A DNA stretch of 64,000 bases, taken from the NCBI GenBank assembly GCA_026707585.1, contig JAPOWQ010000029.1, forward strand, positions 231,362 to 295,361. The letters run 5' to 3'. The position numbers and the translations under genes are program-made. Below the pieces are notes generated by a model, which worked only from the letters and a program-made list of their open reading frames with translations, was not told the DNA's origin and ran no database searches. Origin of the DNA: Chloroflexota bacterium (GTDB lineage: Bacteria > Chloroflexota > UBA11872). Shown here piece by piece: positions 1,699 to 9,884 of this stretch. The stretch's first letter is position 1; each line of letters begins with the position of its first letter.

Positions 1699-2374
1699 GC
1701 GCGCCCACCCCCACCGTAGTCCTCCGCAGCCACAAATACCTCCACCGCGAATATGGCCGCACCTGCGGAGGGCCTGCGCGCTGGGTATTGGGTCAGTCTG
1801 GTCGAACCCTTCACTCCGACGCGGGCAGTCGTGTTTCTCCCCTTCCTGCGACCCCGGCAAACCTCGCCAGGGCCGCCTCTTGCTCCCTCTCTTCATTGAG
1901 AGACCCTTGCAAGACGCCCCCGGTTTCTCGTACATGCGGCCGCCTACTAAACCCTCGCCTGGGAGGCCTTTGCAAGCCTCGGCTAGCCCTCGCTGGGGCC
2001 GCCTCTTTCTCCCTCTCCCTTGAGGGAGAGGGCCGGGGTGAGGGTGGCAGCCTCGGTGAAGCAGCCAAGCCGAAGTCGAGCACCTTGCGCCGGAGCCGCC
2101 CCTCTTCACCCTCTCCAAGGGGAGAGGCAGAACCTGCCCCGGACTCGATCCGGGGTTCGGGCGTCTTCGGCCGAAATCGGTGAGGGGTCTTCCGGGCACT
2201 CAAGCACGGGTTACGCAATATCCTCTGGTCGAAAGAGGCTTCGCTGCCAATAGCTCAGATGACCTACCGCCCGAGGCGACATAACAAGCTCCCACGGGCT
2301 AGACTCTCCCCGGCTTGGTCGGCTCGCCCACGCGGGCGGCGTGGGTGCAAAAGCTTCGACGCGGAGGCGCGCCC
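1699..2374. repeat. intergenic cluster of degenerate hairpin repeats
   Basis: No gene is supported here. The segment holds several partial copies of the dispersed element: TTGAGAGACCCTTGCAAGAC near 1894, GGAGGCCTTTGCAAGCC at 1962-1978, the CCCTCTCCCTTGAGGGAGAGGG hairpin near 2010-2035 (split here by description only), a second hairpin near 2107, and GGGTTACGCAATATCCTC at 2208-2225. The last matches the inverse of the element's end motif. The gap looks like nested or tandem insertions of the same small element. Confidence 0.65.
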
Positions 2375-2944
2375 ATGCACGTCCTGACACAACGCCGCAA
2401 CCTCAGCGCCACCGAACTCCTCATCGGCGCCGCCTTCATCGTCGTCGCCCTCTTCGCCTGGAACCAGCAATCGACCGTCGTCGACCCCGACGGCGTCACC
2501 GTTGAAAACTGGCGCTGGCAGCTCTGGCAGATCGGAACCCTAGTCTTCGCCGCCGCCGGTGCCGCCTGGTTCTGGTCCAACGGCCAGAGCCAGCCCCGCA
2601 TCCGAACCCTGGCGATGGTCCTGCTCACCCTCGTCATCTTCCTCAACACCTACACCGACGACATCTTTGGAGACCACGTTGGATCGGTTTGGGAGGTGGT
2701 CGATGGCCTCTTCTTCACCCTCTCCGCCGTCGTCGGGCTTTCGCTCCTTAGGTCGGGCTGCAACAGGGGCCGCTTCATGGCCGCGGCATCGGCGATCACC
2801 GGCATCCTCGTGTTCATCAACTATCTGTTCATCAATAACGAGACCCTCTGGAGCGCCCTCGACCCACTGATGATGCTGGTGGCCCTGCTCTGGGCAGTCG
2901 TCGGTCTCAGCCCGGACATCGGCGGCCCCGTAGGCGGTGATTGA
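2375..2944 (+). CDS. polytopic membrane protein, tandem paralog 1 of 3
   Basis: Encodes 189 residues from ATG 2375, chosen because GGAGG sits 7 bases upstream; the frame is open further upstream without an equally good site. About six hydrophobic segments are visible, with a conserved NWRWQLWQIGTL stretch after the first and NNETLWSALDPL before the last. The two following genes encode proteins of the same length and pattern, so this is a tandem gene family. The family is not recognised. The products should sit in the cytoplasmic membrane; no catalytic motif is obvious. This copy is the most divergent in the region after helix 4. Confidence 0.75.
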   Translation: MHVLTQRRNLSATELLIGAAFIVVALFAWNQQSTVVDPDGVTVENWRWQLWQIGTLVFAAAGAAWFWSNGQSQPRIRTLAMVLLTLVIFLNTYTDDIFGDHVGSVWEVVDGLFFTLSAVVGLSLLRSGCNRGRFMAAASAITGILVFINYLFINNETLWSALDPLMMLVALLWAVVGLSPDIGGPVGGD

Positions 2945-2978
2945 GAGCAAAGTGACGACCACATGAGGAAGCAGCGCT

Positions 2979-3554
2979 ATGCGTAACCCAATCCGCCCCC
3001 GTGATCTCGGCGCTGCCGAGGCTCTCCTCTACGCCGCCATCCTCTTCGTCGCCCTCTTCGCCTGGGGCGCCTCCACCGGCATGCTGTCCCGCGAGGGCCT
3101 CCCCAACACCTCCAACTGGGCCTGGCGCCTCTGGCAGGTCGGCGCCCTGCTCATGGCCATCCCCGGCATCTGGTGGCTCTGGCGCGGCACCCGGCGCATG
3201 GTCTGGACGCGCGGCCTGATCCTGGGCGTGGTCGCCCTGGCCGTCTTCCTCAACTCCTACGGCGACGGGCTCTTCGAAGGCAACTTCGGCAACATCTGGA
3301 AGACCGTCAACCCGGTCTTTCTTGGCTGCACGCTCATCGCCGTTCCGGTCCTCTGGACGCGCGGCGGTCTGTTGGACCGTCTGGGCGCGCTGATCCTCGC
3401 CGCTCTGGGAATTGTCCTCTTCGCAAACGCCTACTTCGTCAACAACGGCACGCTTTGGGATGCGCTCAACCCCTTGCGGGCTCTGGTTTTCTTGGTGTGG
3501 TCGGTTGTGGCGCTCAAGCCGGGCGCTCGGCCTGACACGGGAATGGGAGGGTAG
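2979..3554 (+). CDS. polytopic membrane protein, tandem paralog 2 of 3
   Basis: Encodes 191 residues from ATG 2979, with GAGGA about 9 bases upstream and 34 bases after the previous gene. It shares with its neighbours a first helix, the motif NWAWRLWQVGALL, a WWLWRG loop, FLNSYGDGLFEGNFG between helices 3 and 4, an R-GG loop, and NNGTLWDALNPL before the last helix. Six membrane segments are expected. The aromatic and NGTLW motifs are conserved in all three copies and probably mark functional loops. Function unknown; co-transcription with both neighbours is likely. Confidence 0.78.
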   Translation: MRNPIRPRDLGAAEALLYAAILFVALFAWGASTGMLSREGLPNTSNWAWRLWQVGALLMAIPGIWWLWRGTRRMVWTRGLILGVVALAVFLNSYGDGLFEGNFGNIWKTVNPVFLGCTLIAVPVLWTRGGLLDRLGALILAALGIVLFANAYFVNNGTLWDALNPLRALVFLVWSVVALKPGARPDTGMGG

Positions 3555-3558
3555 CGTC

Positions 3559-4146
3559 ATGCGGTGCTGGCTTGAACGTCACAATCTCGGATTCGCCGGT
3601 TCCCTTGCCGCGGCGGCCGTCGTGGCCGCCATGCTCTACGCCTGGATCGATGCCGGCTCCGTGGTCTCCGAAACCCGGATCAACGTCGACAGCTGGGGCT
3701 GGAAGATCTGGCAGTTCGCCGCCCTGCTCATCGCCGTCCCCGGCGTGTGGTGGGTCTGGCGCAACACCCGCAACGTCAAGTCCGCCTGGGCCCTCATCCT
3801 CGTGGGCTTCGCCGTCGTCGTCTTCGTCAACTACTACGGCGACCACTCCGACGACTTCTCGGCCTCGGCATTCGGCGAAAACACCCAGGCCGTCTGGGAG
3901 TCCATCAACGCCCTCGTCGTCGGCTTCGCCGTCGCCGGAGCCCTCACCCTCTGGGAACGCGGCGGCACCGCCTACCGCGTCGGCGCCGTCCTGGCCCTCG
4001 CCTTCGGCATCCTCGACCTGATCAACGCCACCTTCCTCCAAAACGGAACCCTCTGGCAGATCCTAGACCCCCTCATCATCCTCGCCGCCCTCTACTGGGC
4101 CGTCGACGAGGTCCGTCCGGCAGCGGCTTCGGCCGAATCCGACTGA
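3559..4146 (+). CDS. polytopic membrane protein, tandem paralog 3 of 3
   Basis: Encodes 195 residues from ATG 3559, preceded by GGGAGGG and only 4 bases after the previous stop. Conserved features are DSWGWKIWQFAALL, WWVWRNTRN, VNYYGDHSDDF, an ERGG loop and QNGTLWQILDPL; the C-terminus is acidic. The same six-segment layout as the two upstream paralogs supports two rounds of local duplication. No similarity to a transporter or enzyme family was recognised. A longer version beginning upstream would overlap the preceding gene and lacks a ribosome site, so the short start is preferred. Confidence 0.78.
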   Translation: MRCWLERHNLGFAGSLAAAAVVAAMLYAWIDAGSVVSETRINVDSWGWKIWQFAALLIAVPGVWWVWRNTRNVKSAWALILVGFAVVVFVNYYGDHSDDFSASAFGENTQAVWESINALVVGFAVAGALTLWERGGTAYRVGAVLALAFGILDLINATFLQNGTLWQILDPLIILAALYWAVDEVRPAAASAESD

Positions 4147-4205: not shown

Positions 4206-4400
4206 GGAGACCTTCGCAAGACCCAGTGTGCGTCCGATCTTTCTCCCTCTCCCTCGGGGAGAGGGTTGGGGTGAGGGTCTTCCGCGCAACCAACCCCCGA
4301 CTCAGCACGATCTTCACAGGCCGGCACGCTCTTTACCCTCTCCTGGGGGAGAGGCAGGTTCGGCCGTCCCCGGCCGAAACCGGTGAGGGGTCTTCCGGGC
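4206..4400. repeat. dispersed element copies with two hairpins
   Basis: Begins with GGAGACCTTCGCAAGACCC (4206-4224), the end motif of the repeat family, followed by the CCCTCTCC/GGAGAGGG hairpin near 4244 and GGTGAGGGTCTTCCG. A second hairpin with a different middle part lies at 4332-4352 and ends in GGTGAGGGGTCTTCCGGGCA. It fills nearly all of the gap between the membrane-protein genes and the fhs gene, which converge on it, so the hairpins could also help terminate transcription. Confidence 0.65.
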
Positions 4401-4440: not shown

Positions 4441-6123
4441 CTAAGCCAGCCCGCTAATCCTCCCGTCCGCCGTAATGTCCATATCCTCGGCAAACGGTCG
4501 CCGGGGCAGCCCCGGCATGGTCAGGATGTCCCCCGTCAGCGGCACCACGAACCCGGCCCCCGCCGACAACCGCACATCGCGCACCGTGACTCGGAACCCG
4601 CTCGGCCTCCCCAGCAACGACGGGTTGTCCGACAGCGAGTACTGCGTCTTCGCCATGCACACCGGGAATCCCCGAGCCACCCCCCGATCCAATCTCCGCA
4701 ATCGCCGCACAACACCCGCCGCGTAGTCCACCCCGTCCGCCCCGTAGATCTCCCGCGCCACCGTCTCGATCTTCTCCGTCAGCGGCGCCTCCGGCTCATA
4801 CAACGGCTTGAAATCGTCCTCGCCCTTCGCCAGCGTCGCCACCACCTGCCTCGCGAGCGCTTCGCCCCCGGCCCCGCCATCGCTGAACACCGTCGAAAGC
4901 GCCGCCGGCGCGCCCAGCCTCTCTGCCGCCGCCAACACCGCGTCCACCTCGGCATCCGTGTCGGTCGGAAACCGATTGACCGCAATGACTACCGGAACCC
5001 CGAACTTCCGCAGGTTCTCGGCATGCGCTTCAAGGTTTGGCATCCCCGCCCGCAGCGCGACCAGGTTCTCAATTGCCAGGTTTCGCCTGCTGGCCCCGCC
5101 ATGCATCTTCAGCGCCCGTACCGTCGCCACCAGCACCGCCACCCGCGGCCGCAGTCCGCCCGCCGGGCATTTGATGTTGAAGAACTTCTCCGCCCCCAGG
5201 TCGGCCCCGAATCCCGCCTCCGTCACCACCACGTCCGCCAGCTTCATCGCCAGCCGCGTGGCCACCAGCGAGTTGCACCCGTGCGCGATATTCCCGAACG
5301 GTCCGCCGTGAATCAGCGCCGGTCCGCCCTCCAGGTTCTGCACCAGGTTCGGCAGCACCGCCTCCCGCATCAGGATCGCCATGGCCGGATGCGCGACTAG
5401 GTCGGCTGCCGTCACGTAGTCGCCCGGCTTGCGCTCCGCCACCGCGATCCGCGCGAACCGCGCCTTCAGGTCCTCCAGGTCCCGCGCCAGGCACAGCACC
5501 GCCATCACTTCCGAGGCCGGCGTGATGTCGAACCCCGTCTCCCGCGGCACCCCGCGCGTCCGCCCGCCCAGGCCCGCCACGATCCCATGCAGCGCCCGGT
5601 CGTTCATGTCGATCACCCGCCGCCACAACACCCGTCGCGCGTCGATCCCCAGCGCATTCCCCTGGTGCAAATGGTTGTCCAGCATCGCCGCCAGCAGGTT
5701 GTGCGCCGCGCTGATCGCCGCGAAGTCGCCGGTGAAGTGCAGGTTGATGTCCTCCATCGGCAGCACCTGCGCGTACCCCCCGCCGGCCGCCCCGCCCTTC
5801 ACCCCGAACACCGGACCCAGCGACGGCTCCCGCGTGGCGCTGAGCGCCCGATGACCCAGCCTCTGCAACGCCTGCGTCAGCCCGATCGTTGTCGTCGTCT
5901 TACCCTCGCCTGCCGGCGTCGGCGTAATCGCCGTCACCAGGATCAGGTCCCCGTCCGGCGCGTCCTTCCGTGCATCGATCGCCGCCCTGCTGACCTTCGC
6001 CTTCGTCCGCCCGTACGGATCGATCTCATCGGCGCCCAGATCCAGGCTCCCCGCCACCTCCTCGATCGGCTTCAACACCGCGCTCTGCGCAATCTCAATA
6101 TCCGGCGGCTGCGATGGACTCAT
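4441..6123 (-). CDS. fhs: formate--tetrahydrofolate ligase
   Basis: ATP-dependent enzyme joining formate to tetrahydrofolate to give 10-formyl-THF, in the cytoplasm. The 560-residue product matches the usual length. Diagnostic stretches are the P-loop TPTPAGEGKTTTTIGL near residue 70, REPSLGPVFGVKGGAAGGGY, LHFTGDFAAI, HGGPFGNIAHGCNS and the C-terminal MPGLPRRP. ATG 6123 is a good start because the protein begins at the family's usual position. It is the last gene of a same-strand one-carbon set (metF, fchA, folD, fhs), separated from folD by 301 bases of repeat sequence, so it may have its own promoter. No unusual residue was noted. Confidence 0.96.
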   Translation of the reverse strand: MSPSQPPDIEIAQSAVLKPIEEVAGSLDLGADEIDPYGRTKAKVSRAAIDARKDAPDGDLILVTAITPTPAGEGKTTTTIGLTQALQRLGHRALSATREPSLGPVFGVKGGAAGGGYAQVLPMEDINLHFTGDFAAISAAHNLLAAMLDNHLHQGNALGIDARRVLWRRVIDMNDRALHGIVAGLGGRTRGVPRETGFDITPASEVMAVLCLARDLEDLKARFARIAVAERKPGDYVTAADLVAHPAMAILMREAVLPNLVQNLEGGPALIHGGPFGNIAHGCNSLVATRLAMKLADVVVTEAGFGADLGAEKFFNIKCPAGGLRPRVAVLVATVRALKMHGGASRRNLAIENLVALRAGMPNLEAHAENLRKFGVPVVIAVNRFPTDTDAEVDAVLAAAERLGAPAALSTVFSDGGAGGEALARQVVATLAKGEDDFKPLYEPEAPLTEKIETVAREIYGADGVDYAAGVVRRLRRLDRGVARGFPVCMAKTQYSLSDNPSLLGRPSGFRVTVRDVRLSAGAGFVVPLTGDILTMPGLPRRPFAEDMDITADGRISGLA

Positions 6124-6194
6124 GAGTTCTCCGGTGAATGACCTCGGACTGCGGCAGCAGGTCGCCTTAACCGCACTCCGTTCTCTGAAGTGAT

Positions 6195-6405
6195 CGGTTG
6201 TCTCTCTACCTGTCCTTCTGGGAGAGGCTCGGGGGGATCACCAGTGTGCGGAATCAACCTCTTAGCGGCGACGCCGATCTTTACCCTCTCCTGGGGGAGA
6301 GGCAGGTTCCGGCGTCTTCGGCGGAAACCGGTGAGGGGTCTTCCGGTCGAGGTCTCTTGAGCCAGCAACACTGCCTCTCTTTTATAGCGGGAGACCTTAC
6401 AAGAG
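6195..6405. repeat. dispersed hairpin repeat between fhs and folD
   Basis: Contains a degraded hairpin near 6207-6231, a well-preserved one (ACCCTCTCCTGGGGGAGAGG) at 6282-6301 followed by GGTGAGGGGTCTTCCGG, and GGAGACCTTACAAGAGTC near 6390. These are the same parts as in the 4206-4400 element. The copies split what would otherwise be a continuous one-carbon operon. Confidence 0.65.
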
Positions 6406-6424
6406 TCTTCGATGCTCAAAGCTG

Positions 6425-7279
6425 CTAGCAAGACACCCCTCGGCGCTCAGCCAACTCAACCAGGTTCCGCATCAGGCAATAATTCGTAATTGGCCCAATC
6501 CCCCCCGGCACCGGCGTTACCGCCCGAGCGCGCGAGGCCACGGCCTCAAAGTCCACGTCGCCCAGCACCGCGCCGTTCTGGTACGTCGTCCCCACATCCA
6601 CCACCACGGCGCCGGACCCCACATGCTCGGCTCCGATCAATCCTGGACTGCCGGTCGCCGCCACCAGGATCTCCGCCTGTGACGTCACTCCGGGCAGATC
6701 CACCGTTCGCGAGTGACACACCGTCGTCGTCGCATTCCGCGCCAGCAACATCGCCCACAACGGCTTGCCCACCACGTTGCTCCGCCCCACCACCACGACT
6801 CTTCGTCCCTCGATGGGCTCCTCGTAGTAGTCAAGCAACTCGATCACCGCCGCCGCCGTCGCCGGCCCCACAGCCGTGTGCCCCCCAAACAGCTCGCCAA
6901 CCGCCGCCGTCGTCAGCCGGTCCACGTCCTTGGCCGGATCGATTGCGGCCACGATCGCGGCCTCATCCACCTGCTCCGCCAGCGGAAACCCCAGCAGAAT
7001 CCCATGCACGCCGGCATCGGCATTCAATGCCAGCACGCGATCCACGACCTCGACGGTCGACGAATTGCCCGGCAACTCCTCCATGACTGCCTGCATACCC
7101 ACCCGCTTGCACCCGCGCTGCACCGCCCGCGCATATCCCCGCGCCGACGGATCGTCACCAACCAGGATCATGTGCAGCGCCAGCGGCCCGCTATCTTCCA
7201 GCTTGGCGACCCGCTCGCTCACAGCCGCCCGCAGCGCCCGCGCCGGCCCGCGACCCGACCAGACCTCGGCCGTGCTCAT
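6425..7279 (-). CDS. folD: FolD-family methylene-THF dehydrogenase, probably without cyclohydrolase activity
   Basis: A 284-residue protein with the FolD fold: KDVDRLT near 116, the NAD(P) loop VVVVGRSNVVGKP and PVPGGIGPIT near the C-terminus. FolD normally both dehydrogenates 5,10-methylene-THF and hydrolyses methenyl-THF. The usual catalytic lysine (Y-x3-K-x-K-x-C) is replaced: the segment reads GYARAVQRGC, putting Val53 at the lysine. The conserved glutamine of the VQLPLP motif is also gone; the segment reads ILLGFPL with Gly97. The aspartate of DVD is kept. Both changed residues are needed for cyclohydrolase chemistry in bifunctional enzymes, so I infer a dehydrogenase-only enzyme. Its ATG overlaps the stop of the FchA-type gene (ATGA), indicating translational coupling. 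Confidence 0.9.
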   Translation of the reverse strand: MSTAEVWSGRGPARALRAAVSERVAKLEDSGPLALHMILVGDDPSARGYARAVQRGCKRVGMQAVMEELPGNSSTVEVVDRVLALNADAGVHGILLGFPLAEQVDEAAIVAAIDPAKDVDRLTTAAVGELFGGHTAVGPATAAAVIELLDYYEEPIEGRRVVVVGRSNVVGKPLWAMLLARNATTTVCHSRTVDLPGVTSQAEILVAATGSPGLIGAEHVGSGAVVVDVGTTYQNGAVLGDVDFEAVASRARAVTPVPGGIGPITNYCLMRNLVELAERRGVSC

Positions 7280-7908
7280 GCCAAACCGTTCCCAAGTACG
7301 CCATCCACCACGCCGTCAGCCGCATCGCGCGCCGCCAACGCCTTGGCCAGTTCACCCGACAGTTCGTCACGCACCGCCGAATCTTCGATCGACCCAAGAT
7401 TCGCCTGCACGTTCATCTCGCAAATCCGAATCGCCGTCCGCGCCAGCGCCGCTCCCGCCCCGGCATCGCTGATCACGTTTGGATTCCCCTTCTCCGCCGT
7501 TTCAGAGGCCAACTCAATCATCTCCGCCGCCGCCGCGGCCACCCGCAACGGCACTCGGCTGGCCTGCTCACAAGCGCTCGCAATCGCCGCTTGCCGGCTT
7601 GATCGCTCATCGGCCGACCCGCGCGGCAGTCCGTACGCTGCCATCACCTGCCCATACGCTTCCGCATCCGCCTCCGCCAGCTCCAATGCCGAATCCCGAA
7701 TCGCATCGCAACGCTCGATCACCCGCTCCATGTCCGCCTGCACCGCCCGAAACTTGCGCCGCCCGGTCGTCAGCCGCGCCGTCATCGCCACCAGCGCCGC
7801 CCCCATCCCCAGCGCCACCGCCGCCCCGGCCCCACCTCCCGGCGTGGGCGCCGACGACGCCAACGCATCCAGAAACTCCCCTAGCGATCCGCCCTCGAAG
7901 TGGCTCAC
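7276..7908 (-). CDS. fchA: cyclodeaminase/cyclohydrolase family protein, probable methenyl-THF cyclohydrolase
   Basis: The 210-residue product belongs to the formiminotransferase-cyclodeaminase C-terminal family (PF04961): it opens with GGSLGEFLDALASSAPTPGGG, followed by alanine-rich helices, MTARLTTGR and EKGNPNVISDAG. The family includes formimino-THF cyclodeaminase and FchA, a methenyl-THF cyclohydrolase. I chose GTG 7908 because it lies 2 bases after the metF stop and places the GGS motif at the N-terminus; the longer open frame runs antiparallel in reading to metF and has no family similarity. There is no formiminotransferase domain or histidine-degradation gene nearby, while fhs, folD and metF are, which favours cyclohydrolase over cyclodeaminase. 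Confidence 0.88.
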   Translation of the reverse strand: MSHFEGGSLGEFLDALASSAPTPGGGAGAAVALGMGAALVAMTARLTTGRRKFRAVQADMERVIERCDAIRDSALELAEADAEAYGQVMAAYGLPRGSADERSSRQAAIASACEQASRVPLRVAAAAAEMIELASETAEKGNPNVISDAGAGAALARTAIRICEMNVQANLGSIEDSAVRDELSGELAKALAARDAADGVVDGVLGNGLA

Positions 7909-7910
7909 GA

Positions 7911-8915
7911 TCAGGCGGCGGCCGCGGGCTCGGGAACGCCGGGCGCCAGCGATGGCTCGGGCACCGGCCGCGGCAGCTTCAATCCCGCCGCCTTCACAAT
8001 CCGCGGCACCGCCCGCTCCCAGTCGATCGCCATGATGTGCACCCCGTGCACCCCCGGGATCTCCCGCACCTGCTCGATGATCTCCAGGCAAATCTTCACG
8101 CCCTCGGTCCGCGGCTTCTTCGCCGCCCGCATCCGCTCCACCACCGAGTCCGGCACTTCCATGCCCGCGATCTTGAACTTCATGAACTCCGCCATCCGCG
8201 CCGACTTCAGCGGACCCACCCCCGCGAATATGTGCACCCGCTCGTCCAGCCCCTCGTCCCGCACGTACGACATCCAGTCCGCGAACCGCTCCACGTTGAA
8301 GATCATCTGCGTCAGCGCAAACTCCTGCCCCGCCTCGGCCTTCTTGATCATCCGCAGCGGACGCCACCCGTACGGCGGCGCAAACGGATTCGCCGCCCCG
8401 CCGATGAAGTAGCCAAAGTCACCCTTGATTGGATCGCCCGCCGCTGTTTTGCCCTCGTCCCGCAGCCGCCGCAGCAGGCGCACCAGTTGCACCCCCTGCA
8501 GGTCGAATACCGGCTTCGCCATCGGATGATCGCCCAGCACCAGGGAGTCCCCGCTGATTGACATAAAGTTACGCACGCCAAACGCCTGCGCCGCGATCAC
8601 GTCCGACTGGATAGCCAGCCGGTTCCGGTCTCGGCACGACAGCTGCATGATCGGCTCCACCCCGCCCTGCGCGCACAGCAGCGCCGCCCCCCAGTTCGCC
8701 ATCTTCAGCGCCGCGCCCTGGTTATCCGTGCAACTGGCCGCATCCACGAACCCGCGGATAATCCCCACCTTCTTCCGCACGTCCGAAGCATCCGGCGCCC
8801 GCGGCGGCCCCAACTCGCACGTCACCGCAAACTCCCCCGCCGCCAGCACCGCCTGCAGGTGGCTATACGGCGGCGACGTGGCAACCGACACGCCACTGGC
8901 TTCGGCCGAAGTCAT
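7911..8915 (-). CDS. metF: methylenetetrahydrofolate reductase
   Basis: Reduces 5,10-methylene-THF to 5-methyl-THF with a flavin. The 334-residue product has the MTHFR barrel features: CELGPPRAPD with the catalytic glutamate near residue 32, the DAASCTDNQ segment, QLSCRDRNR, SISGDS, FFIGGAANPF-like FGYFIGGAANPF and FALTQMIFN. ATG 8915 is taken as start; 19 further codons upstream are open but lie in a structured repeat. A second domain of the eukaryotic type is absent. It is the first gene of the minus-strand one-carbon operon, 2 bases ahead of fchA. The proline/alanine-rich tail after residue 315 is probably unstructured. Confidence 0.93.
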   Translation of the reverse strand: MTSAEASGVSVATSPPYSHLQAVLAAGEFAVTCELGPPRAPDASDVRKKVGIIRGFVDAASCTDNQGAALKMANWGAALLCAQGGVEPIMQLSCRDRNRLAIQSDVIAAQAFGVRNFMSISGDSLVLGDHPMAKPVFDLQGVQLVRLLRRLRDEGKTAAGDPIKGDFGYFIGGAANPFAPPYGWRPLRMIKKAEAGQEFALTQMIFNVERFADWMSYVRDEGLDERVHIFAGVGPLKSARMAEFMKFKIAGMEVPDSVVERMRAAKKPRTEGVKICLEIIEQVREIPGVHGVHIMAIDWERAVPRIVKAAGLKLPRPVPEPSLAPGVPEPAAAA

Positions 8916-8923
8916 GCGAATAA

Positions 8924-9042
8924 AGGGACCTGCCTGAAGTCGGGGGCGCCGCCCATGGTATCGCGGGAACACTCCGGGATGCCGTGTGGCCCAGGCTGCG
9001 CGCAGCCTGGGACCTCCCGCACCAACCTGCCGACAGGTCCCT
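8924..9042. repeat. 119-bp palindromic element with inverted ends
   Basis: AGGGACCTG at 8924-8932 is matched by its reverse complement CAGGTCCCT at 9034-9042. Midway lies a perfect 22-bp palindrome, CCCAGGCTGCG at 8990-9000 and CGCAGCCTGGG at 9001-9011. It occupies the gap between vapC and metF, so it lies in the metF leader if that gene is transcribed from upstream. It could be a small non-autonomous mobile element or a folded leader RNA; no known riboswitch was recognised. Confidence 0.6.
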
Positions 9043-9061: not shown

Positions 9062-9490
9062 CTAGTTCAGCGTCTCCACCCGCAAGCCGTCGAACCGTTC
9101 AAAGTCGCGGTCGTTCGTGAGTACGGTGTCGATGCCGTGCTCCTGGCACAGCGCTGCAATCTGCGCGTCGAACATCAGGTTGCCGCGTGCATCGGACTGG
9201 CGCGCCGTTTCCATTAAAAGATCGAGAAACTCGGTGCCCGGCCGGACCAATTCACAGGTCGGTGCGGCCACAAGGTTCTCGATGAACCCAGCCGCCTGCG
9301 AGACCGAGGAGGGCGGGTTGAACACGCGCCCATGCGTCACGACTCGCATGAACTCCGCCACGCAGAACACCGGAAGCCCCCAGCGCGCCGGCCCCTCGGC
9401 CAGACTAACGAGCCGAGCCCGTGCCGCCATATGCCACGCGCTCTCGCTGCGATGGGCATGAATCAGAACGTTGGTATCCACCGCGATCAC
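9062..9490 (-). CDS. vapC: PIN-domain toxin, VapC-type
   Basis: A 142-residue PIN-domain protein, expected to be a metal-dependent ribonuclease. The acidic residues are visible as MIAVDTNVLIHAHR at the N-terminus, CVAEFMRV in the middle, MFDAQIAALC and TNDRDFERF near the end. Length and layout match VapC toxins. It starts at GTG 9490, which overlaps the stop of the upstream antitoxin gene, as is usual for such pairs. The RNA target cannot be predicted from the sequence. Confidence 0.9.
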   Translation of the reverse strand: MIAVDTNVLIHAHRSESAWHMAARARLVSLAEGPARWGLPVFCVAEFMRVVTHGRVFNPPSSVSQAAGFIENLVAAPTCELVRPGTEFLDLLMETARQSDARGNLMFDAQIAALCQEHGIDTVLTNDRDFERFDGLRVETLN

Positions 9491-9723
9491 GAACGGTCAA
9501 TCACCTCGTAGAGCGCATTTCGATCGTCAATATCGACGTTCGGCGGCGCGTTGCCGGTGACCGTCTCGAGTCTCAGCCGGAACGGAGGCCTCCGCCTTCC
9601 CGTTCCCGCCAGCCGCGCGCGCAGGGCGTCCTCAACGAACCTCGTAAGCGTTATTCCGTCGCGGGCCGCCCGCTGCTTCGCCTGCCGCAGCACCTGGTCA
9701 TTCAGATTCAGCGTCGTCTTCAT
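9487..9723 (-). CDS. vapB: ribbon-helix-helix antitoxin, VapB-type
   Basis: A 78-residue protein beginning MKTTLNLNDQVLRQAKQRAA, the classical ribbon-helix-helix DNA-binding start, followed by a TRFVEDALRARL helix and a short acidic tail that would bind the toxin. ATG 9723 is preferred to a start 13 codons upstream because the family begins at this methionine. Expected to neutralise the VapC product and to repress the operon. An operator should lie in 9724-9884, but no clear palindrome was noted there. Confidence 0.88.
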   Translation of the reverse strand: MKTTLNLNDQVLRQAKQRAARDGITLTRFVEDALRARLAGTGRRRPPFRLRLETVTGNAPPNVDIDDRNALYEVIDRS

Positions 9724-9884
9724 GCAAGCGTCCGCCATCCCGCAGGCGTATGGCTCAACCATATCATTCAGTCGGATGCCTCAGCCCCCGCCAACGGCTA
9801 CCTTTGCTTGACTTGGCATTGTGTCTGAGTGACGCCACTGGACGGCTTGCGCACCGAGCGCCAGCTGCGTAGAGAAGGAACTCA

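Follow-up and report, generated by a model that had tools for sequence, protein, structure and literature searches.

A FolD-family protein without the catalytic lysine is encoded beside an FchA-type gene in a Chloroflexota bacterium

How is methenyl-tetrahydrofolate (methenyl-THF) hydrolyzed when the FolD protein of a folate gene cluster lacks the residues that serve this reaction in bifunctional FolD enzymes? The question is raised by a metF-fchA-folD-fhs cluster of a Chloroflexota bacterium. The cluster lies in the window, i.e., the whole 64,000-nucleotide stretch of contig JAPOWQ010000029.1 that was analyzed. Its features are as follows:

7911..8972, minus strand: metF (methylene-THF reductase), which opens the cluster (PF02219, 2.9e-32), 2 nt from fchA
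7276..7908, minus strand: fchA-type gene of the stand-alone cyclodeaminase/cyclohydrolase family, 210 aa, GTG start at 7908 (PF04961, 7.5e-58)
7276..7279, minus strand: 4 nt shared by the end of fchA (stop) and the beginning of folD (start)
6425..7279, minus strand: folD, FolD-family methylene-THF dehydrogenase without the catalytic Lys/Gln, 284 aa (PF02882, 1.2e-54; PF00763, 4.3e-26)
7121..7123, minus strand: codon of Val53 in folD, at the position of E. coli Lys54 (alignment)
6989..6991, minus strand: codon of Gly97 in folD, at the position of E. coli Gln98 (alignment)
6124..6424, no strand: folD-fhs spacer of 301 nt, with a dispersed repeat that recurs at 2124-2195 and 4327-4398
4441..6123, minus strand: fhs (formate-THF ligase; PF01268, 5.7e-249)

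The TGA stop of fchA overlaps the ATG of folD by 4 nt, and fchA starts 2 nt past the metF stop. The overlap and the Pfam matches bear out the first-pass annotation, which had placed an overlapping upstream FchA-family gene within an fhs/metF cluster. The fchA/folD gap was -4 in six of seven same-genus relatives and -7 in the remaining one. Within the genus, dN/dS was 0.12–0.27 for folD (7 pairs) and 0.16–0.21 for fchA, indicating that both genes are under purifying selection. The metF value of 1.26 for one relative (G012) was set aside because its metF (L086) carries an in-frame TAA, which is either an assembly error or the mark of a pseudogene.

In the alignment with E. coli FolD (sequence from NC_000913.3), Val53 and Gly97 of the window FolD took the positions of Lys54 and Gln98. 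The catalytic lysine of the YxxxK motif of bifunctional FolD (Val53 in the window protein) and the glutamine that positions it (Gly97) are therefore absent, as the first-pass annotation had claimed. Both Lys and Gln were present in 5/5 solved FolD chains with alignments shown (5 of the 27 listed). Val53 was invariant in 8/8 same-genus FolDs, and because folD is also under purifying selection, this residue is not a chance substitution. Both FolD Pfam domains (PF02882 and PF00763) exceeded their cut-offs, and the protein retained Tyr50, Lys118-Asp119, Asp121, Gly-Arg-Ser 166–168, His190, and the Pro-Gly-Gly motif (E. coli numbers, as used hereafter). Besides positions 54 and 98, the pocket of the window's family has changed at Gly122 (to Arg), Pro143 (to Ala), and Gly145 (to Ala). 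All NCBIfam models listed for this protein (25 of 30) are named "bifunctional", and none of them reached its cut-off (best score 254 bits vs a cut-off of 421).

According to PMC3338484, the lysine is the general acid/base of the FolD cyclohydrolase, and the glutamine positions this lysine. Published mutant data for E. coli FolD (PMC5688156) give no detectable cyclohydrolase and ~19% dehydrogenase activity for K54N, and ~1% cyclohydrolase and ~8% dehydrogenase activity for Q98H. The corresponding human pair, Lys56/Gln100, also has a dehydrogenase role, as stated in a paper on the Leishmania enzyme (PMC3368264). The earlier claim that both residues are needed for cyclohydrolase activity thus agrees with these papers, but both residues serve the dehydrogenase as well. 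The loss of the catalytic lysine strongly suggests that the window FolD has no cyclohydrolase activity. In both the window protein and the FchA-adjacent FolDs described below, the dehydrogenase motifs are kept and the cyclohydrolase base is lost. To call FolD a "pure" dehydrogenase assumes compensating changes elsewhere in the protein, because the dehydrogenase reaction, too, draws on Lys54 and Gln98.

The job presumably lost by FolD most likely falls to the fchA product, a predicted methenyl-THF cyclohydrolase. This protein is a stand-alone FTCD_C domain of 210 aa that scored above the PF04961 cut-off and fitted the family consensus at 15/15 columns that are >90% conserved (134 sequences). 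Its closest solved structure was the methenyl-THF cyclohydrolase 7vg4 (3.9e-40), followed by the cyclodeaminase-type structures 1o5h from Thermotoga (~1e-21) and 1tt9 of FTCD (~1e-20). The FchA model NF045657, the only NCBIfam family among the matches listed, gave 195 bits, below its cut-off of 275. In the genome of the window (G000; 3.92 Mb, 95.6% complete), one FolD and one FTCD_C protein were found, with FchA the only cyclohydrolase-type protein. A second complete FolD, which would have spoken against the first-pass reading, was sought in this genome and none was found; the other, weak PF02882 match (C5:99386-99622) overlaps a short-chain-dehydrogenase ORF and was rejected. Acetyl-CoA synthase (CdhC/AcsB, PF03598) had no match in G000 either, and Wood-Ljungdahl autotrophy, with the cluster as an acetogen cluster, was therefore rejected.

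We consider it highly probable, judging from sequence, that this FolD is a dehydrogenase without cyclohydrolase activity, that the coupled and unrelated FchA is the cyclohydrolase, that the cluster encodes a four-protein chain, and that the pair was inherited. The folD product would act as an NAD(P)+-dependent methylene-THF dehydrogenase without methenyl-THF hydrolysis; the cofactor is likely NADP+, given the kept Arg-Ser...His motif. Hydrolysis would have been lost because Val stands in place of the general base, Lys54 of the E. coli enzyme, and Gly in place of its helper, Gln98. The translationally coupled fchA would encode an enzyme, unrelated to FolD, for the interconversion of methenyl-THF and 10-formyl-THF. 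Together with Fhs and MetF, the predicted chain would run formate – 10-formyl-THF – methenyl-THF – methylene-THF – methyl-THF on four separate proteins. The activities of FolD and FchA, as well as the physiological direction of this chain, are what we infer. The pair would descend from an old lysine-less FolD clade that spans Chloroflexota and occurs once in an actinomycete.

The first-pass annotation had proposed a survey of whether genomes with this FolD variant always carry the FchA-type gene. Among 400 Chloroflexota genomes, PF00763 was found in 368 and PF04961 in 282, and 243 FolD copies from 229 of the 400 genomes were scored. This sample was not random: FolDs were taken from the best ~155 matches by score, from the surroundings of FTCD_C genes (a source biased towards adjacent pairs), from 17 genomes that scored low and had no FTCD_C, and from another 80 that had FTCD_C but whose FolD lay outside the listed matches. 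Duplicate rows of one gene and two copies gapped at position 54 (G033 and G316_2) were left out before counting, and G308 and G180 yielded no FolD in sampling. An FchA gene within 1.5 kb on the same strand was counted as adjacent.

Lys54 was present in 0/128 FchA-adjacent FolDs (Ile in 73, Leu in 38, Val in 17), and FchA lay upstream of folD in 127 of these 128 pairs. Among FolDs without adjacent FchA, 58 of the 113 scored had Lys54. Where FTCD_C occurred elsewhere in the genome, the lysine was found in 8 of the 45 scored FolDs (other residues in 37; gap in 1); with fused FTCD only, in 8/8; and in genomes without FTCD_C, in 42 of the 60 scored (other residues in 18; gap in 1). The loss was selective for this position. 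When the 61 positions that are ≥93% conserved in the 58 Lys-type FolDs were compared with the 128 FchA-adjacent FolDs, position 54 alone dropped to 0%, the next-lowest positions being 51 (23%), 145 (37%), and 143 (38%). Tyr50, Lys118, Asp119, Asp121, Gly166-Arg167-Ser168, His190, Asp229, Gly242-Asp243, and Pro260-Gly261-Gly262 were kept in 91–100% of the FchA-adjacent FolDs.

No Lys-type FolD was found in 171 of the 229 sampled genomes (154 with FTCD_C, 16 without it, and 1 with an unscorable fragment only). The survey agrees strongly with the expected association among adjacent pairs, but "always" does not hold, as 16 of the 58 FTCD_C-less sampled genomes contain lysine-less FolD only. Some of these exceptions come from less complete assemblies (G316, 58%; G190, 74%; G228, 76%; G029, 77%; others, 84–89%), and five belong to family f45. 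As far as the data go, G305 (96% complete), G372 (94%), and G344 (91%) are real exceptions, and at least G305 is neither incomplete nor very divergent.

The five f45 genomes without an FTCD_C match (L218-L222) encode very divergent FolD-like proteins with Phe50, Leu54, Val98, and Glu121, whose function may be other than that of a methylene-THF dehydrogenase. Of note, many Chloroflexota genomes contain a second lysine-less FolD away from FchA, with Val/Leu at position 54, Leu98, and the motif KDVDGLG (e.g., L294, L303, L304, and similar loci in families f14, f21, and f39).

The named relatives were Chloroflexota metagenome assemblies. In the class of the window genome (41 genomes), FolD was found in 36/41 and FTCD_C in 35/41. 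Position 54 was Val, Ile, or Leu in 35/35 scorable class FolDs (36 aligned, one of them a fragment). Gln98 was found in 0/19 FolDs of families f1 and f2, 0/6 of f5, 2/2 of f3, and 7/8 scored of f4. This pattern suggests an earlier or wider loss of the lysine and a later or rarer loss of the glutamine. The folD and fchA genes adjoined in 25/25 FolD-bearing genomes of f1, f2, and f5, but not in f3 and f4. Five same-genus genomes lack both FolD and FTCD_C. This joint absence was not counted as support, since in two of them a gap in the assembly is more probable than true loss: in G009, metF and a fragment of fhs lie at the ends of contigs, and in G008, fhs is partial.

Residues, gene order, single copy, conservation, and co-distribution are direct observations; how many separate events the co-distribution represents was read from FolD trees. 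The tree of 239 rows, built with columns 54 and 98 removed, required three changes of the Lys state, and the tree of 87 rows, which included 10 named non-Chloroflexota FolDs, required four. In the latter, one branch (support 99) united 52 FolDs that lack the lysine with a single FolD that has it. This Lys-type FolD (G154, L248), which has Glu98, is nested within the lysine-less clade and may reflect either regain of the lysine or a transfer. The clade also included a FolD with Ile54 from Embleya sp. (Streptomycetaceae), whose FchA gene lies directly upstream of folD. The Embleya protein had been picked as the highest-identity plasmid match before its residue 54 or its neighbours were known. 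At least two or three losses of the lysine are likely, because the FolD of Acetoanaerobium noterae fell outside the lysine-less branch, as did a pair of copies from G372 and G092. The remaining eight named non-Chloroflexota FolDs had Lys and Gln in 8/8.

Because the trees contain so few loss events, the 128 FchA-adjacent cases are not independent. The result of 0/128 is mostly inheritance and not 128 separate events; it shows that the pairing is stable. A test of independent pairs had just two supported independent pairs and hence no power. The association of lysine-less FolD with FchA rests on descent and a few separate losses. Loss of the lysine extends over the whole class and goes back largely to a single old event on the FolD tree; it is no innovation at this locus and not special to this genome.

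Could the fchA product instead act as a cyclodeaminase on formimino-THF in the breakdown of histidine or purines, with methenyl-THF hydrolyzed spontaneously or by residual FolD activity? FTCD_C proteins do include cyclodeaminases, and the matches to 1o5h and 1tt9 are of this type. A homologue in Peptoclostridium sits in a hut operon, and methenyl-THF hydrolysis can be spontaneous according to PMC5688156. However, the formiminotransferase domain (FTCD_N, PF07837) had no match in G000, so there is no sign that FchA serves histidine breakdown there. In addition, fchA lies within metF-fchA-folD-fhs, its best solved match is a cyclohydrolase (3.9e-40 vs 1e-21 and 1e-20), and lysine loss follows FchA adjacency. 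We regard the cyclodeaminase explanation as improbable. Retention of cyclohydrolase activity by FolD through another residue, such as a basic position 56, which would make FchA redundant, is less probable still. Position 56 is often Arg or Lys in lysine-less FolDs, but these residues are also common there in Lys-type FolDs, which argues against compensation, and position 56 was rejected as a substitute base. Moreover, E. coli K54N retains K56 and yet has no detectable cyclohydrolase (PMC5688156), and purifying selection on fchA (dN/dS 0.16–0.21) does not fit a redundant gene.

In the least probable explanation, FolD is in decay or now serves another reaction, and the cluster no longer oxidizes or reduces methylene-THF. 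The further pocket changes at positions 122, 143, and 145 would agree with this, as would the drop of E. coli dehydrogenase activity to ~8% by Q98H alone (PMC5688156). Purifying selection, the kept dehydrogenase motifs, the status of this protein as the sole FolD in the genome, and the conserved synteny with metF and fhs all stand against it. The division of labour between a FolD dehydrogenase and an FchA cyclohydrolase is the preferred explanation. The first-pass annotation had called this division, in which FchA took over hydrolysis, subfunctionalisation. The predicted functions agree with that account, but because FchA is unrelated to FolD, ancient replacement by a non-homologous enzyme describes the history better. 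Subfunctionalisation usually means that paralogues divide one task.

The window FolD has in common with bifunctional FolD (E. coli; DC domain of the human enzyme) both domains, Tyr50, Asp121, and the nucleotide-binding motifs, but its catalytic Lys54 and Gln98 are replaced. The clostridial system of Clostridium perfringens likewise consists of a FolD-family dehydrogenase, a separate FchA cyclohydrolase, and Fhs; Aluri et al. 2016 reportedly studied these three proteins and found FolD to be monofunctional. The clostridial FolD of Acetoanaerobium noterae has Ala54, Phe98, and Cys122, with an FchA-type gene on the same record; unlike the window pair, these two genes are not adjacent. Its lysine loss is probably separate from that of the Chloroflexota clade, since its FolD fell outside this clade on the tree. 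A split of this kind is already known from clostridia; what is new is its extent, as a subfamily of FolDs without the lysine, called bifunctional by the annotation models listed, reaches across Chloroflexota. No title or abstract on lysine-less FolD in Chloroflexota was found in a literature search that covered mainly papers available without subscription. MtdA, the dehydrogenase of Methylobacterium extorquens, belongs to a family other than FolD. In this organism, MtdA and the cyclohydrolase Fch are two proteins (PMC9618320), and the likeness lies in the split of a dehydrogenase and an Fch-type cyclohydrolase. The acetogen cluster of Acetobacterium woodii, fhs-fchA-folD-rnfC2-metVF, covers the same four steps with fchA and folD as separate genes (PMC10472528). 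In contrast to it, the window genome is without CdhC/acetyl-CoA synthase, and its cluster begins with metF and is not interrupted by rnfC2 or metV.

Metabolic models that follow the name "bifunctional" would assign two jobs to one protein and overlook FchA in an essential role. To tell both FolD types apart, one alignment column and the neighbouring gene suffice. The same distinction also predicts the bacteria expected to be insensitive to carolacton, whose action on the E. coli enzyme requires Lys54. A broader idea, which we hold only tentatively and think rather unlikely, is that FchA and lysine-less FolD form an ancient cassette, mobile or vertical, in Chloroflexota and Actinomycetota. Its two proteins would physically pair to hand over methenyl-THF, and in the window's family the pair would have become more specialised through the added loss of Gln98 and Gly122. 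Bearers of this cassette would be naturally insensitive to carolacton.

Downstream of folD, the distance to fhs is 301 nt here, compared with 11 nt in 5/6 and -4 nt in 1/6 same-genus relatives with both genes. The repeat in this spacer (6124-6424), CCCTCTCC...GGGGAGAGG...GTGAGGGGTCTTCCGG, has related copies at 90-129, 2091-2195, 4245-4284, and 4318-4398, and is apparently a recent insertion that split the operon. Three paralogous membrane-type proteins of ~190–240 aa, the first two without a Pfam match, are encoded in tandem at 2315-4146. Directly upstream of metF (9062-9762), a PIN-domain gene and an overlapping small gene resemble a VapBC toxin-antitoxin pair.
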